Origin: Bacteroidales bacterium
GTDB lineage: Bacteria > Bacteroidota > Bacteroidia > Bacteroidales > DTU049
DNA: 60,744 nucleotides
Direction: 5' to 3'
NCBI GenBank assembly: GCA_026418905.1
Contig: JAOAAK010000004.1
Coordinates: 1 to 60,744, forward strand
A program made the position numbers and the translations under genes. Below the pieces are notes generated by a model that worked only from the letters and a program-made list of their open reading frames with translations, made no database searches and was not told where the DNA came from. Of the stretch, positions 1,725-8,227 are shown piece by piece (position 1 is the stretch's first letter; every line of letters starts with the position of its first letter).

Positions 1725-3071
1725 ATGCCAAAAATTACATACGTAATATTTATCATAATATATTTTTCACCTTCATTTTCTCAAAATGAAGATACTATCT
1801 ATTCAAACGATCCGTGCTTATTGCTTCATCAGGCTTGCTACGACAATGATTTAGCAAAAGTAAAGATCTTATTTAAACAATATCAACTGGATGCTAATTG
1901 CGTTTTAGATGCTTTATCTCCGATTTTTCCAATACATTACGCTGTCACAAATGGAAATAATGCGATGATTTTATGGTTATTAAATCATGATGCTTACATC
2001 GATGCCCAGGATAAAGATGGCTATACTCCACTTCATCTTGCCATTTTGTTGCAAAAAGATACGATTTTCGATCTATTACTAGCCAATGGTGCTAATGTAA
2101 ACCTACAAGATAAATGGGGTAGAACTCCCCTCTTGCTAGCTATTGAAAAGGATCGACAAGATTTAGTTGAAAAATTGCTGCAGTTCCGCCCTAATGTTTC
2201 TATTAATGATTTTTTGCATCTTTCGGTATATGAGTATTGCACTTTATTCTCCGACACAAATATGGCAAATGTATTATACCATCATCATGTCCCATGCCCG
2301 TTTACTCATACTCAACTTAATGCTTTTCATATATCCAAACTAACATCTAACTTTTTGATGCAAAGGTGGTTATTAAACACATGTCAGATCAATGATACAA
2401 CGTTTCCTCTTTCTATTTGTCTTGAATTTTATAACATTGCTTGCTATTTTAACCAATCTCAATGGAAAAAAAACATCTTGTACTTTATGAAAACTCATTA
2501 CTCTTCAGATTCATTACTCATGTTTCGAAAAAACTTAATTCTAAAAAAAGATCTTAAAATAACACACGATCTAAATAAATTAAAGATGCCACGAGGCTAT
2601 TTTTTTGTGTTTCACCCTTTTATATCATTTGGTTTTCTTAGTAATGGTAGATTTTTCTTCGCTCGAACAGGGATCATTTTTTCTGATTACAACCACCTCT
2701 TGGACATGTCAGTTCATTTAAGCCTAACTTGCTGGCCTTCATGGAATAAAATTAACATGGAACCTTTAGTATATTACCAAATCAAGGAAAAAAGGTATAT
2801 GGTGTCTGCGATTTTCCAAAAAGGAATTTTCTTTCACGAAATTTTTCGACATACAGCACATCTATCTCCGGGTATTGAAATAGGCTATACATGGGGATTT
2901 TATCCCTCGCTTGAAAAAGAAGCTTTTAACTCATTTTATGTCTATCCTTTAGTTAAATACAACTACAATTTACGTTGGTTAACTCTGATGTCCTCCATAC
3001 ATTATATTAATTTTCATCAAAATAGTACAAAATGGTTTATTTCTCTTTCCTCCGCAATAAGGTTGCCATGA
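1725..3071 (+). CDS. Ankyrin-repeat protein with C-terminal beta-rich, barrel-like region
   Basis: This 448-residue protein has a signal peptide (ends near FSPSFSQ) and at least three ankyrin repeats between about residues 30 and 160. Hallmarks are FPIHYAVTNGNNAMILWLLN, GYTPLHLAILLQ, LLLANGANVNLQDKWGRTPL and LLLAIEKDRQDLVEKLL. A helical linker follows to about residue 285. The last ~160 residues are aromatic and strand-like (YFFVFHPFISFGFL, YNYNLRWLTLMSSIHYI, WFISLSSAIRLP), like an outer-membrane barrel. The combination suggests ankyrin repeats exposed in the periplasm and tethered to the outer membrane. The barrel call is inference. The stop overlaps the start of the next gene (ATGA). Confidence 0.7.
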   Translation: MPKITYVIFIIIYFSPSFSQNEDTIYSNDPCLLLHQACYDNDLAKVKILFKQYQLDANCVLDALSPIFPIHYAVTNGNNAMILWLLNHDAYIDAQDKDGYTPLHLAILLQKDTIFDLLLANGANVNLQDKWGRTPLLLAIEKDRQDLVEKLLQFRPNVSINDFLHLSVYEYCTLFSDTNMANVLYHHHVPCPFTHTQLNAFHISKLTSNFLMQRWLLNTCQINDTTFPLSICLEFYNIACYFNQSQWKKNILYFMKTHYSSDSLLMFRKNLILKKDLKITHDLNKLKMPRGYFFVFHPFISFGFLSNGRFFFARTGIIFSDYNHLLDMSVHLSLTCWPSWNKINMEPLVYYQIKEKRYMVSAIFQKGIFFHEIFRHTAHLSPGIEIGYTWGFYPSLEKEAFNSFYVYPLVKYNYNLRWLTLMSSIHYINFHQNSTKWFISLSSAIRLP

Positions 3072-3482: not shown

Positions 3483-4130
3483 TTACCGACGCACGTTGTG
3501 ATTAATAATAACGTCAAAATACTTTGGATTCCAAAAAACTTCGAACTTAAGATGTTCGAATTGATTAAAATCCTTTCCTTCGAAAATATCTACATGAAAC
3601 ACATTCTTGAGGACCAACCATGGCAATTCTGAACAGTAAAATGAGGTGGTATCAGTAATATCGAATGAATGGTCAAATGGAACCTTCCGCTCTAAGTATT
3701 CAATAGCTTTCTTACTAATTAAGTGTCTTGTGGTGTCATTAGCAAATTTAAACCTTACCACCATGATTGAATTGAGTTGACTATCCCACAGAAATTGTGG
3801 AAAAGATTGTTCCTGAACACCATCTATTGGATAAAGTGATTGGGATACACAGTGAATAATTTTAAATCCATGCGGACATGTATCACAACTTACCAGTATA
3901 CCCACATGAGAAACATGGTAATCTTCGTTAAATGTCTGCACAATACCATCACTAACCAGACCATATCCATGACGAAGAATAAAATCTCCATCTTTTAAAA
4001 GGGAGTATTCTTCAGGATTAAGGTCATAACGAACTATATCACGTGTAGCACTCGAACGAACATTGTACGTAACAAAATACAATAAAAAAGCGGCAAGAAA
4101 AATTCCCGCTACCATGAGAGGTTTTTTCAT
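3483..4130 (-). CDS. YiiX/YebB-like NlpC/P60-type cysteine hydrolase
   Basis: This 215-residue protein has one N-terminal membrane or signal segment (residues 4-20). It then resembles the permuted papain-like YiiX family: LLKDGDFILRHG at ~44-55, the conserved HVGI (His75), and FYCSEL with the putative nucleophile Cys166 preceded by PFDHSFDI. Family members cleave amide or acyl bonds in lipid- or peptidoglycan-like substrates at the envelope, but the substrate is unknown. Both catalytic candidates are present in the permuted order, His before Cys, so it is probably active. It lies 20 bases downstream of the DUF4878-like lipoprotein gene and may be co-transcribed with it. Confidence 0.78.
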   Translation of the reverse strand: MKKPLMVAGIFLAAFLLYFVTYNVRSSATRDIVRYDLNPEEYSLLKDGDFILRHGYGLVSDGIVQTFNEDYHVSHVGILVSCDTCPHGFKIIHCVSQSLYPIDGVQEQSFPQFLWDSQLNSIMVVRFKFANDTTRHLISKKAIEYLERKVPFDHSFDITDTTSFYCSELPWLVLKNVFHVDIFEGKDFNQFEHLKFEVFWNPKYFDVIINHNVRR

Positions 4131-4150: not shown

Positions 4151-4603
4151 TTATTTCTTTTCAGTTGTTGGCTGGGTTTTGGTAGTGTCGTTTTCTTCTT
4201 CTACGTCATCCATGGGAGCATTCATATCACCACCCATTTCTTTGGGAACCTGAGAAACTTTCCACTTACCTTCGACCTGTTGAAGCATAATTTTGCCATC
4301 TTTGCCGTCCTGTTTATAAGTACATGTAGCTTCTTTGTCCTTAACTTCACACTTCATGTCTTTAATTTCAACTTCTTTTTTCTGATCTTGTTTCTTCACA
4401 CCAGCCTCTTTAGCAAAACCCTCGATCATGGTTACCAAGCTAGCTGCTTTTCCTGTAGCAAGTTCTCTAGCCTTAGCATATTCACCCTTTGCTAAGTACT
4501 TCAAGAAATCTTCTGCTACCTTTTCAGGTTTCTCTGCTTTTTTACAATTGCTTACAGCAATCATTACAAAAACTGCAACAAGAACACTCAAAATTCTCTT
4601 CAT
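4151..4603 (-). CDS. DUF4878-like lipoprotein
   Basis: This 150-residue protein starts MKRILSVLVAVFVMIAVSNC, with Cys20 as the likely lipidation site. The segment KPEKVAEDFLKYLAKGEYAK followed by RELAT is typical of DUF4878/NTF2-like lipoproteins, where a helix pair precedes a curved sheet. The sheet is suggested by EVEIKDMKCEVKDKEATCTY and the stretch around QQVEGKWKVSQVPKEMGG. The tail is acidic and Thr-rich. The cellular role of the family is unknown. A strong two-part promoter lies directly upstream. Confidence 0.75.
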   Translation of the reverse strand: MKRILSVLVAVFVMIAVSNCKKAEKPEKVAEDFLKYLAKGEYAKARELATGKAASLVTMIEGFAKEAGVKKQDQKKEVEIKDMKCEVKDKEATCTYKQDGKDGKIMLQQVEGKWKVSQVPKEMGGDMNAPMDDVEEENDTTKTQPTTEKK

Positions 4604-4655: not shown

Positions 4656-4777
4656 TAAAAAAATGAATTGAATATACGATTAACCACAATGGAAATGGTC
4701 ACACAATAGGAGAACTACCCTTGTTAAAACGTAAGAAAAAATACCTATATGTATTTTTTAGTTAAGTTTTGTTTTGC

Positions 4778-4797: not shown

Positions 4798-5406
4798 ATG
4801 CGCAAAGTTTTAAACAAATTAATCTTTTCTTTATGCTGGAGTTTTTTAATAATATCTTGTGCAAAAAATGATGCACAGGTTTCAGACTTTAGCGCTAATG
4901 AAATAAAACTAATAACATCTGGTTCCAATTCTGATTCATTAAGAGTTTTAAATTATTTTATACAAGCCGATTCAATCATTTTACGCAAGAAAAGTTCAAG
5001 GATCACAGATCTGAATTCACCTTTCTTAAAACTTCTTATCAGCAGAATGTATAAAACTGTAATTATCGAACAGGGTGTAGGCATAGCAGCTCCCCAAGTA
5101 GGGATAAATAAGCGTGTCATTTGGGTCCAACGACACGATAAGCCGTCAAAGCCTTTTGAAGTTTATATTAACCCGTGGATTGTCAGCTATTCAGACACAC
5201 TGGAACAAAGAAATGATGGTTGCCTGAGCATTCCTGGTGTGTACGGAAAAAGTTGGAGAGCTATCTGGGTAGAAGTCGATTATTTTACTCCCGACGGTCA
5301 GCATATCAGAGAAAAAATTAAGCATAAGTATACAGCTCATATATTTCAGCACGAAATTGATCACCTTGAAGGTATTTTATGGATCGACAGAATCAATAAA
5401 CCTTAA
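4798..5406 (+). CDS. Peptide deformylase-family lipoprotein
   Basis: This 202-residue protein carries all three peptide-deformylase motifs: GVGIAAPQ (93-100), GCLS (141-144, preceded by Asp where the family usually has Glu) and HEIDH (185-189), so the Cys/His/His metal site and the catalytic Glu are intact. Deformylase normally removes the formyl group from new proteins in the cytoplasm. Here the N-terminus is a lipoprotein signal (hydrophobic residues 8-20, Cys21 in LIISC) followed by ~70 extra residues, so export to the periplasmic face is predicted. ATG 4798 is preferred because a -7 element lies just upstream. It may act on exported peptides or be a catalytically altered paralogue. Confidence 0.8.
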   Translation: MRKVLNKLIFSLCWSFLIISCAKNDAQVSDFSANEIKLITSGSNSDSLRVLNYFIQADSIILRKKSSRITDLNSPFLKLLISRMYKTVIIEQGVGIAAPQVGINKRVIWVQRHDKPSKPFEVYINPWIVSYSDTLEQRNDGCLSIPGVYGKSWRAIWVEVDYFTPDGQHIREKIKHKYTAHIFQHEIDHLEGILWIDRINKP

Positions 5407-5417
5407 TTTTTCTTCTC

Positions 5418-6563
5418 ATGTATACTATCGCCACAGTCGTTGGTGCTAGGCCTCAGTTTATTAAAGCTTCCGCTCTTAGCAGATTATTTAGTGTCCATTC
5501 CAAAATCAGGGAGATTCTTATTCATACTGGCCAACATTACGATTTACAAATGTCAGACGTTTTTTTTCGAGATCTTGAATTACCACGACCTCATTTTAAT
5601 TTGGAAATTGGTTCTCACGATCACGGCAAGCAAACTGGTCTCATGATTCAAAAACTCGAAGAAGTATTGGACGAAATTCAACCCAATGCAGTTATGGTTT
5701 ACGGAGATACTAATAGTACCCTGGCTGGTGCTTTGACAGCAGCTAAAAAACATATACCCATTTTTCACGTAGAAGCAGGTCTTCGCTCTTTCGAAAAGAA
5801 CATGCCAGAGGAAATCAATAGAATATTGACTGACCATATGAGTACGGTGCTCTTTTGTCCTACTTCAACAGCAATTCATAATCTGAAGAATGAAGGGCTC
5901 TTTCACCATGACAAATTACCTCATTCTATTAATCAACCAGGTATTTTCCTAACTGGTGATATTATGTATGACGTAGCCCTATATTACCAACATAAGGCTG
6001 AAACTGAATCGCTTATTCTACACCAACTTAATTTGCAACCCAATTCTTTTTTCTTGGTAACCATTCATCGAAGTGAAAATACGGATAATCGCTTAAAATT
6101 GGCATTACTAGTTGAACTGCTTGAAAAAATAGCTTCATATTTTCAACTCCCTGTTGTCTTCCCCATTCATCCACGAACACAAAAAATGATTCATGAATTT
6201 GAGCTATTCGATAAATTGAAAAAACTGAGTAATCTTGTTTTAACTAATCCCCTTTCTTATCTAGACATGATTCAACTTGAATCCAATTCTCGCCTTATAC
6301 TAACTGACTCAGGTGGCGTGCAGAAAGAAGCTTATTTTTTTAAAAAACCTTGCTACGTTTTAAGAAAAGAAACTGAATGGGTTGAACTTCTAGAACAAAA
6401 AAAGGCCCGCTTGTGGATGTATGACAATCAGAAAGCATTGGCTGATATAGAAGAATTAATTACTATTGACAACGAAAATTTTGCTGCTGTTTTTGGTGAT
6501 GGAATGGCTGCTAATCGAATTTTGTCCATCATTGAAAATGAAATTTTATTTAATGAACCTTAG
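5418..6563 (+). CDS. wbpI: UDP-sugar 2-epimerase, WbpI type (WecB superfamily)
   Basis: This 381-residue non-hydrolysing UDP-sugar 2-epimerase has the motifs GARPQFIKA (9-17), GQHYD, GDTNSTLAGALTAAK, HVEAGLRSF, MPEEINRILTDH, TIHRSENTDN and LTDSGGVQKEA. The ARPQFIKA start and the FFRDLELPRPHFNLEI region resemble WbpI, which converts UDP-2,3-diacetamido-glucuronic acid to the mannuronic form, more than WecB, which acts on UDP-GlcNAc and usually begins with GTRPE. The other four enzymes of that pathway are encoded at 13.1-17.1 kb, which supports the WbpI reading. WecB-type activity cannot be excluded. It follows the deformylase gene by 11 bases and overlaps the next gene. Confidence 0.85.
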   Translation: MYTIATVVGARPQFIKASALSRLFSVHSKIREILIHTGQHYDLQMSDVFFRDLELPRPHFNLEIGSHDHGKQTGLMIQKLEEVLDEIQPNAVMVYGDTNSTLAGALTAAKKHIPIFHVEAGLRSFEKNMPEEINRILTDHMSTVLFCPTSTAIHNLKNEGLFHHDKLPHSINQPGIFLTGDIMYDVALYYQHKAETESLILHQLNLQPNSFFLVTIHRSENTDNRLKLALLVELLEKIASYFQLPVVFPIHPRTQKMIHEFELFDKLKKLSNLVLTNPLSYLDMIQLESNSRLILTDSGGVQKEAYFFKKPCYVLRKETEWVELLEQKKARLWMYDNQKALADIEELITIDNENFAAVFGDGMAANRILSIIENEILFNEP

Positions 6564-6915
6564 GAATTCTATCATCTGGATTGGAATAAGTTGTTCAGTA
6601 GCTATTCTCATTGTCCTTCTACTAATGGGTTATATTTTTAATGTATGTCAGCAACTTTGGTTAGCTGCATTTATCATTATCACACTGTATTCTCTCATTG
6701 CTCCTGTATTAAATCAAAGATCTGAAATTAAACTTTCAAGCATTAACCTCATGCTTTTGACCAGTTCCTTACATCTGGATACTTTAATTTACGTTTGGCT
6801 TTTTGTACCTTGTAAATTGAGTGAAAGTGGCTTTAAATGGGAATATGTAATTTTCACTGCACTTGTTACTTTAGCCGGGAATTTTCTTAATTCCTTGTTT
6901 TATGAAAAATCCTGA
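6553..6915 (+). CDS. Small integral membrane protein
   Basis: This 120-residue protein has three or four predicted membrane helices (about 7-28, 35-52, 64-84, 96-113). ATG at 6553 lies 11 bases inside the preceding epimerase gene and the end overlaps the deacetylase gene by 14 bases, so translation appears coupled. An in-frame upstream start would add a segment overlapping the epimerase and is rejected. No family is recognised. Its place between an epimerase and a deacetylase suggests a role in envelope glycan synthesis. Confidence 0.6.
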   Translation: MNLRNSIIWIGISCSVAILIVLLLMGYIFNVCQQLWLAAFIIITLYSLIAPVLNQRSEIKLSSINLMLLTSSLHLDTLIYVWLFVPCKLSESGFKWEYVIFTALVTLAGNFLNSLFYEKS

Positions 6916-8227
6916 CTTACTTATTGTTACACCTCACTTGAATAGTCGACTTGAGTACGTATTGCATTACGTGTTCGAGCAACGCATGAATTTAAAATTC
7001 CAAGTACTTAACAACTCATATATTCAAAGTTTTCCATACCCAACGTTGTTTTATGGCTTCCCGACATCTCAAAGCGAAGTTATTTCCATTCCTTACTCGG
7101 GTTACCTTGATTTACCCATTGACAAGTTATATATTCCTCCTATTGAAAATCGAGAAGGAATCCCTGTCATTTTTGCTGGGAAAAAGTCCGACGAATTTTT
7201 ATTTGATATTTTTTCGGCTGTTTTTTTCATGCTAACACGCATAGAAGAAATTTTAAGTACTAAAGTTGATGAACATGGACGTTTCGATGCATGCCACAGC
7301 TTTATGCATTCAAATCATTTGCATCATCGAGCATTAGTGGATGAATGGATCATGATTTTATCTTCTACACTTTACAGTCGATTTCCGGGTTTACCCATAA
7401 AAAGAGTTAAATCTAATTTCAGCATTACGATGGATATTGATCAGCTTTTTTCGTACAAGGGAAAAGGCTTTATCAGAAACAGCGGTGGTTTATTTAGATC
7501 CTTTTTAACAGGAGAAAAAGAGAAAGTCAAAGAAAGGTGGCAAGTATTTTTAAATAAAATACCAGATCCCTTCGATATTTATAATAAATTATCAGACCTC
7601 ATTCCGTCGGAATTCTTGCCCATTCAAACTTTTATATTAGCTTCTCCTAAAAGGACTTTTTTCGACAAAAACACTTCATTTAAAACTATTACGGAAAAAA
7701 AAGCATTGAGCAAAATTAGTTCATATTCACTATTAGGGTGGCACAGCTCATATTATAGTCAGGTAAACTTTAATAAATTTAAATCCGAAAAAAAACACAT
7801 AGAAAACATCATTGGCCAACCAGTGAATAAACATCGAAGTCATTATCTTCGAATCCATATTCCCAAAACATATCAATGGCTTGTAGACTGCGGTATTACT
7901 GAAGATCATTCGTTGGGATTTGCTTGTGATTACGGCTTCCGAGCTGGAACAGGCAAACCTTTTCCTTTTTACGATATTACACAGGAAAAAGTCCTTCCCT
8001 TGACTATTCACCCATTTTGTATCATGGATGGAACATTGGTGGATTATCTTAAGCTTTCACTCGAAGAAAGTGAAGAAGTTCTTAAAAAAATGTGGAATTA
8101 CGCAAAAAATAACGATACAGACATGTGTATTCTTCTTCATAATGAAACTTTTTCAGAAAAAGGCCGTTGGGTAGGATGGTCTAACATGCTTGCGAAATTC
8201 TTCAAATATGTTCAATTGAGTCTATGA
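6902..8227 (+). CDS. Polysaccharide deacetylase-family protein
   Basis: The 441-residue protein resembles the Bacteroidota deacetylase-like group with an N-terminal DUF7033-type region (about 1-170, containing FDACHSFMHSNHLHHRALVD) and a C-terminal NodB-like barrel. The metal motif appears as TMDIDQ (TFDDD-like), followed by GWHSSYYS and KHRSHYLRI and the late segment LTIHPFCIMDGTL. Such enzymes remove N-acetyl groups from cell-surface glycans. There is no signal peptide, so it may act at the cytoplasmic side on a nucleotide- or lipid-linked precursor. It overlaps its neighbours on both sides (14 and 4 bases). Confidence 0.75.
   Translation: MKNPDLLIVTPHLNSRLEYVLHYVFEQRMNLKFQVLNNSYIQSFPYPTLFYGFPTSQSEVISIPYSGYLDLPIDKLYIPPIENREGIPVIFAGKKSDEFLFDIFSAVFFMLTRIEEILSTKVDEHGRFDACHSFMHSNHLHHRALVDEWIMILSSTLYSRFPGLPIKRVKSNFSITMDIDQLFSYKGKGFIRNSGGLFRSFLTGEKEKVKERWQVFLNKIPDPFDIYNKLSDLIPSEFLPIQTFILASPKRTFFDKNTSFKTITEKKALSKISSYSLLGWHSSYYSQVNFNKFKSEKKHIENIIGQPVNKHRSHYLRIHIPKTYQWLVDCGITEDHSLGFACDYGFRAGTGKPFPFYDITQEKVLPLTIHPFCIMDGTLVDYLKLSLEESEEVLKKMWNYAKNNDTDMCILLHNETFSEKGRWVGWSNMLAKFFKYVQLSL

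Follow-up and report, generated by a model that had tools for sequence, protein, structure and literature searches.

A predicted exported lipoprotein form of peptide deformylase in a Bacteroidales genome and in other Bacteroidota

A gene at positions 4798..5406 (+) of the window, which is the whole 60,744-nucleotide stretch of Bacteroidales DNA that was analysed, encodes a peptide deformylase (PDF) predicted to be an exported lipoprotein. The protein, henceforth referred to as the window protein, has 202 residues and starts at an ATG, and the coordinates include the stop codon. On balance we favour the reading that it is a functional PDF which would be exported by Sec, lipidated at Cys21 and turned towards the periplasm, acting beyond the reach of the cytoplasmic PDF. 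Export of PDFs of this type is well supported by the features of their sequences; the enzyme activity, the membrane and its side, and the natural substrate are what we infer.

An exported PDF family of Bacteroidota is apparently undescribed. Individual members probably already stand in public databases under the name "peptide deformylase"; what appears to be new is the recognition of the exported family and of its architectures. No exported PDF is described in the titles and abstract beginnings of the literature matches listed, which come from a largely open-access collection, and exact phrases such as "periplasmic deformylase" had no match in the literature searched. Accessory PDFs were surveyed in 2025 with regard to their copy number, mobile elements and inhibitor resistance (PMC12690207). 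Its main text contains no match for Bacteroid* or lipoprotein and uses "signal peptide" once, for substrates.

Peptide deformylase domain of the window protein

The identification of the open reading frame as a peptide deformylase, made in the initial annotation, was upheld by three profiles, each scoring above its cut-off: PF01327 (Pfam; E 1.4e-38, residues 56-201, 132.4 bits against a curated threshold of 22.8), TIGR00079 (NCBIfam; 117.9 bits against 103.95) and NF001159 (NCBIfam; 127 bits against 125). The domain was placed at 4963..5403 (+), from residue 56, where the PF01327 match begins. Motif I, GVGIAAPQ (residues 93-100; 5074..5097, +), was located in alignment A1. Motif II (residues 140-144; 5215..5229, +) contains the metal ligand Cys142 and reads DGCLS instead of the exact EGCLS, with Asp140 where the canonical motif has Glu. 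Motif III, QHEIDHLEG (residues 184-192; 5347..5373, +), supplies the metal ligands His185 and His189 and the catalytic Glu186. Cys142, His185, His189 and Glu186 are thus all present, under the residue numbers originally given, and none of the four varies among the 13 rows of A1. As to the variant motif II, exact PDF motifs are described as not essential for activity, or else the deviating sequences as containing errors (PMC12690207).

The best of five AlphaFold models of the window protein reached a pLDDT of 83 (the other four, 56-60). Residues 45-202 of this model matched solved PDFs with Z 20.6 to both 6jf3_B and 1lme_B over 142-145 residues, and the PDF fold is present in the predicted structure. 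The closest solved relatives in sequence and fold include 6jf3-6jf8, a class I type b PDF of Acinetobacter, and the PDF deposited as 1szz/1sv2, the Acinetobacter rows being 37-39% identical to the window protein over the structural alignment. A family-specific stretch lies between signal and PDF domain (residues 31-55; 4888..4962, +; A1 consensus FSxxEIxLIxSG...MR), and the model places a helix within it at residues 33-40. Compared to canonical cytoplasmic Def (PF01327, TIGR00079), the window protein has the same fold, motifs and metal ligands but adds a signal with a lipobox and about 50 N-terminal residues, and it falls in a separate clade. Its C-terminal tail, 13 residues after HEIDH, is shorter than that of its Bacteroidales Def cousins. 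Comparison of the gene with those of four relatives gave pN of 0.31-0.35 and pS of 0.85-0.88, the synonymous sites being saturated, and a pseudogene reading was rejected on these values.

Signal peptide and predicted location

Signals were assessed by eye and with an in-house scan for hydropathy and Cys residues. The window protein begins with MRKVLNKLIFSLCWSFLIIS, followed directly by CAKNDAQ. The scan confirmed the lipoprotein signal with Cys21 that had been proposed for it: the predicted signal peptide (residues 1-20; 4798..4857, +) comprises a positive n-region, MRKVLNK, a hydrophobic core and the residues LIIS, which complete a lipobox with the predicted lipidated Cys21 (4858..4860, +). 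The first eight residues of the protein contain three K/R and no D/E, and the 11-residue Kyte-Doolittle maximum at the N-terminus is 2.43. The signal has the same place in alignments A1 and A2, and a Cys comes after the hydrophobic segment in 32 of the 38 exported proteins in the tree described below and in 28 of 32 rows of A2.

A true start downstream of the signal would have undone the proposal, but the only in-frame ATG, GTG or TTG among codons 1-90 are codons 1 and 84. Codon 84 lies within the PDF domain, so that no shorter protein with the whole domain could arise from a downstream start; an upstream TTG at 4774 would merely lengthen the frame. The initial annotation had also put some 70 extra residues before the first motif. 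The extension is real, but its length is about 50 residues, with 92 residues preceding motif I in the window protein compared to 42 in the ordinary def of the same genome.

Surface export of lipoproteins in Bacteroidota is associated with the motif C-X-K-(D/E)2, or with several acidic residues in a row between +2 and +6 (PMC5080379). This motif is absent from the window protein (CAKNDAQ) and occurs in 2 of the 28 Cys-bearing rows of A2, while three or more acidic residues occur in 0 of 28. From this pattern the periplasmic face appears likelier than the surface for the window protein, and its surface display was set aside for lack of the export motif. Outer-membrane lipoproteins of Bacteroidota without a surface-export signal, such as wild-type SiaC, likewise have a lipobox Cys and no C-X-K-(D/E)2 (PMC5080379), although SiaC is a sialidase and the window protein a predicted deformylase.

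Ordinary def and distribution of the exported family

The source genome (2.11 Mb, 47 contigs, 97% complete) also contains a def without a signal (G000:C5:7262-7726; E 6.4e-47). The cytoplasmic copy expected elsewhere in the genome was therefore found, and the window gene is not its only def. Both fmt and lspA (signal peptidase II) are present in this genome.

A search of 59 genomes, own included, read out a signal-bearing PDF in 12 of the 58 others (G001, G004, G006, G008, G027, G030, G037, G038, G039, G044, G050 and G058). A match in G019 (L049) is cut by a contig end, which makes its N-terminus unreadable, and was left out. Ten of the resulting 13 carriers also have an ordinary def. In G008 the ordinary def lies in two pieces at contig ends, and none was found in G037 (97% complete) or G044 (95% complete). 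A short PDF-like type without a signal and with altered motifs (e.g. CMSF, CFSF) was observed in G047 and G051 (L036, L037, L040), genomes that also have an ordinary def.

Within the window's own family, 5 of 12 genomes, own included, carry the exported PDF; three of the seven without it are less than 85% complete. With 7 of 12 genomes lacking it, the distribution is patchy and the function dispensable. In a survey of the order with A2, 38 of 247 genomes, own included, matched at E 1e-45 or better, and the corresponding class survey gave 13 of 396 genomes, own included, at 1e-60 or better, with the next match at 5.5e-41. N-termini were read for 13 of 13 class-sample and 23 of 38 order-sample carriers, the other 15 resting on profile score. 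When other classes of the phylum were searched with A1, 0 of 149 sampled genomes reached 1e-40, the best match (4.5e-36) being an ordinary PDF when read, so phylum-wide spread is not supported. Among the matches listed, named carriers include Tamlana, Leeuwenhoekiella, Paucihalobacter, Parapedobacter, Tidjanibacter, Chryseobacterium and Epilithonimonas, together with Saprospiraceae and Dysgonomonas MAGs.

Phylogeny and signal types

A tree was built from 80 rows: 38 exported PDFs, 33 ordinary Bacteroidales PDFs, in which one protein occurs twice (L003, L042), and 9 PDFs of other phyla. L036 and L040, in which motif I is missing, were left out of the tree, and L037 (a short PDF without a signal) and L055 (the same as L043) were not used. 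A 99/93 branch separates all 38 exported PDFs from the ordinary and other ones, and a 99/98 branch holds the 33 ordinary Bacteroidales PDFs together. Because the "exported" labels preceded the tree and were given for N-terminal coverage and hydrophobicity, the tree demonstrates the coherence of the group and not the signal itself.

A hydrophobic N-terminal segment (at least 2.10) was found in 38 of 38 exported rows. It is followed by a Cys in 32 of 38 (the Parapedobacter row L060 is ambiguous) compared to 0 of 33 ordinary rows. The groups cannot be told apart by hydropathy alone: in frames taken from the previous stop, 5 of the 33 ordinary PDFs and 1 of the 9 from other phyla also exceeded 2.0, none of them with the Cys. 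The n-region is net positive in 31 of 32 rows of A2, the alignment that omits L039, L060, L065, L068, L072 and L074 from the 38 exported rows and has row L067 starting one codon late. A chance hydrophobic N-terminus is very unlikely, because the predicted export signal is kept throughout a group spanning several families and orders.

The exported rows differ in the type of signal. L056 and five Weeksellaceae rows resemble substrates of signal peptidase I. A hydrophobic N-terminus is present in 13 of 13 class-sample carriers, five of which have a lipobox-like Cys, whereas eight look secreted by eye (G495, G326, G572, G449, G496, G436, G354 and G070). The Cys scan can flag a Cys inside the hydrophobic core, as in G326, G572, G436 and G354, and those were judged by eye. 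Among the 23 order-sample carriers with the N-terminus read, the Cys is present in 19 and, by eye, absent in G641, G723, G788 and G718. With lipobox and secreted forms both represented, export would thus be what these PDFs have in common, and lipidation the version of it adopted by the window protein.

In five Weeksellaceae rows (L069, L071, L072, L074 and L080) and in G070 (L132/L175), motif II reads EGDLS for EGCLS, so that the metal Cys is replaced by Asp in 5 of 38 exported rows and in G070. These members keep motif I and HExDH and have no lipobox Cys. Such a change may adapt the enzyme to an oxidising compartment.

The C-terminal tail after HExDH has a median length of 16.5 residues in the exported rows and measures at most 38 in 37 of 38, the exception being the L068 fusion. 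The tail of the 33 ordinary Bacteroidales rows has 38-48 residues, and that of the nine PDFs of other phyla, presumed cytoplasmic, 12-37. The tail has been described as involved in the association of PDF with the ribosome (PMC12690207). Since the PDFs of other phyla have tails of comparable length, the short tail would be weak support for the function proposed below.

Fusions and adjacent peptidases

The genome G495 contains a signal, a PDF and a Peptidase_M1 domain in a single 830-aa frame (L191:5723-8212, +). By eye, the M1 part has HEAIH-18-E, the motif of that peptidase clan with its downstream Glu. This fusion is one case across all surveys. In G326, a Peptidase_C1_2 gene, signal-like by eye, lies 11 bases upstream of the PDF, and in G256 a Peptidase_S46 gene lies 140 bases upstream. 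A peptidase fusion or neighbour is thus found in 3 of 5 examined carriers of the family to which these three genomes belong, a small number and a pattern noticed post hoc; the family has 6 carriers in 13 genomes, the sixth (G604) being outside the neighbour count.

Other architectures were also observed. DUF1684 precedes the PDF in G449. Lipoproteins of G617, G778 and G704 (L215, L216 and L217) contain a tandem of PDF domains, of which the first has degenerate motifs and the second is intact. Long N-terminal regions without a Pfam match stand behind a signal-like start in G641, G723, G788 and G718. The exported PDF frame continues into a flavin-reductase domain at L068:5842-7098 (+) and into a deaminase domain in G741 (L214:3419-4537, -), each representing either a fusion or a lost stop.

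Proposed function and alternative readings

In the proposed mechanism, Sec would export the window PDF, lipidation of Cys21 would anchor it in a membrane, and it would probably face the periplasm. Its substrates would be N-formyl-Met peptides, cleaved signal-peptide fragments and the N-termini of N-out membrane proteins shielded by SRP. Nascent signal sequences bound by SRP escape deformylation, and it has been proposed that membrane proteins of the N-out type can stay formylated; a bacterial role of retained formyl groups, if any, is given as not known (PMC5454389). Removal of the formyl group would open these N-termini to aminopeptidases and dipeptidyl-peptidases, leading to degradation or salvage. 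N-formyl groups block aminopeptidases, so deformylation followed by trimming within one polypeptide would be the simplest reading of the PDF-M1 fusion. This fusion and the peptidase neighbours in two relatives would favour N-formyl peptides or N-termini outside the cytoplasm as the substrate. Weighing against the proposed function are the mostly unrelated gene neighbours, the single M1 fusion, the patchy distribution, the 8 of 13 class-sample carriers that look secreted by eye, the variant motif II with its Asp forms, and G037 and G044, where no ordinary def was found. We put forward only tentatively the wider proposal that many Bacteroidota possess an extracytoplasmic N-terminal processing step, in which a lipoprotein or secreted PDF clears the formyl groups left by SRP on exported and N-out proteins and on signal-peptide debris and hands the N-termini to periplasmic exopeptidases, sometimes within one polypeptide as in the PDF-M1 fusion.

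Deformylation is treated as cytoplasmic and co-translational. If the proposed function is correct, deformylation would be a two-compartment process. Counts of "second PDFs" may then mix two kinds of enzyme, PDF inhibitors may have a target in the envelope, and carriers could differ in the number of formyl peptides that they show to host receptors.

Recruitment of the exported PDF fold for some other amide or N-acyl hydrolysis outside the cell, acting on another N-formyl compound, a modified peptide, or a cell-wall or antibiotic molecule, is unlikely but has several observations on its side. These include the family-specific stretch ahead of the PDF domain, Asp140, the Asp in place of the metal-site Cys in Weeksellaceae and the tandem forms with a degenerate first domain. 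In addition, mreB-mreC-mreD-PBP2-rodA-like genes (names by eye) precede the exported PDF at three Flavobacteriaceae loci (L051, L052 and L063). However, the window protein keeps its metal ligands and exceeds the TIGR00079 equivalog cut-off, and the peptidase fusion and adjacency point to peptides.

We consider it improbable that the enzyme acts on its surroundings, either destroying the N-formyl peptides that alert phagocytes or scavenging those of other bacteria. Formyl peptides do attract neutrophils (PMC5454389), and the matches listed include members from animal guts (sheep colon Tidjanibacter, rumen Bacteroidales). The signals resembling those of signal peptidase I substrates, by eye, in 8 of 13 class-sample carriers and the long N-terminal regions of G641, G723, G788 and G718, which match nothing in Pfam, also speak for such a role. 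Against it, carriers among the matches listed include Tamlana, Leeuwenhoekiella and Paucihalobacter, presumably marine or free-living genera, and the surface-export motif is confined to 2 of 28 Cys-bearing rows and missing from the window protein.

That the protein stays in the cell, with its hydrophobic N-terminus serving as a cytoplasm-facing membrane anchor of a second cytoplasmic PDF, we hold to be very improbable. This reading gains from the signal having been called by the in-house scan and by eye, and from G037 and G044, where the failure to detect an ordinary def is hard to explain if the exported enzyme cannot serve the ribosome, unless these MAGs miss the gene. The combination of positive n-region, hydrophobic core and Cys argues for export of the window protein, as do the lack of an internal start and the occurrence of an M1 peptidase and of long N-terminal regions behind the same type of signal.

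The accessory PDFs of PMC12690207 (V. cholerae Def2, integron and plasmid PDFs) are likewise second PDFs beside an ordinary one, and they share with the window protein a Tyr near the Arg97 place; the exported family differs from them in bearing a signal and in having no close plasmid or phage match. In the window protein this is Tyr149, seven residues past the motif-II Cys, at what we infer to be the place of E. coli Arg97 and of the Arg-to-Tyr change given for reduced actinonin binding in Def2VCH (PMC12690207). Least probable of all is that the window protein is itself an accessory PDF for resistance to natural inhibitors such as actinonin, with an incidental export signal, since the Arg97 place is Tyr in 2 and Arg in 18 of the 38 exported rows, a PDF outside the cytoplasm could not stand in for the blocked one inside it, no plasmid or phage match has at least 60% identity at E 1e-10, and the exported PDF locus is syntenic within its own family.

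Gene neighbourhood of the window PDF

The downstream gene (5418..6563, +) encodes a non-hydrolysing UDP-GlcNAc 2-epimerase, WecB (TIGR00236, 306.7 bits), and its start lies 14 bases beyond the final sense codon of the PDF gene. It is absent from the gene clusters shared with other exported-PDF loci. No conserved operon was found: clusters occurring in at least three loci are mostly local to one family, and counts that include both L043 and L055, which are the same, drop by one. The window has five neighbouring gene clusters in common with L041 and L046 and four with L044, which argues for vertical descent within the family. A mobile-element origin was rejected, as the 61 plasmid and 131 phage records matching at E 1e-10 are all below 60% identity. 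A Nudix cluster lies near the exported PDF in five genomes, with a Pfam match on one; other neighbours include a ClC channel, a mutS2-like gene and glycosidases, and most neighbours are unrelated.

Several further genes of the window were observed. An ankyrin-repeat protein with a signal-like N-terminus (1725-3071, +) is syntenic in three relatives of the same family. The gene at 3483-4130 (-), which in NCBIfam weakly matches a YiiX-type permuted papain-like enzyme, adjoins a small lipoprotein-like gene (4151-4603, -); relatives also have both genes close to their exported PDF. Downstream of wecB, the gene at 6902-8227 (+) encodes a DUF7033 protein with a match, below cut-off, to the VimE deacetylase.
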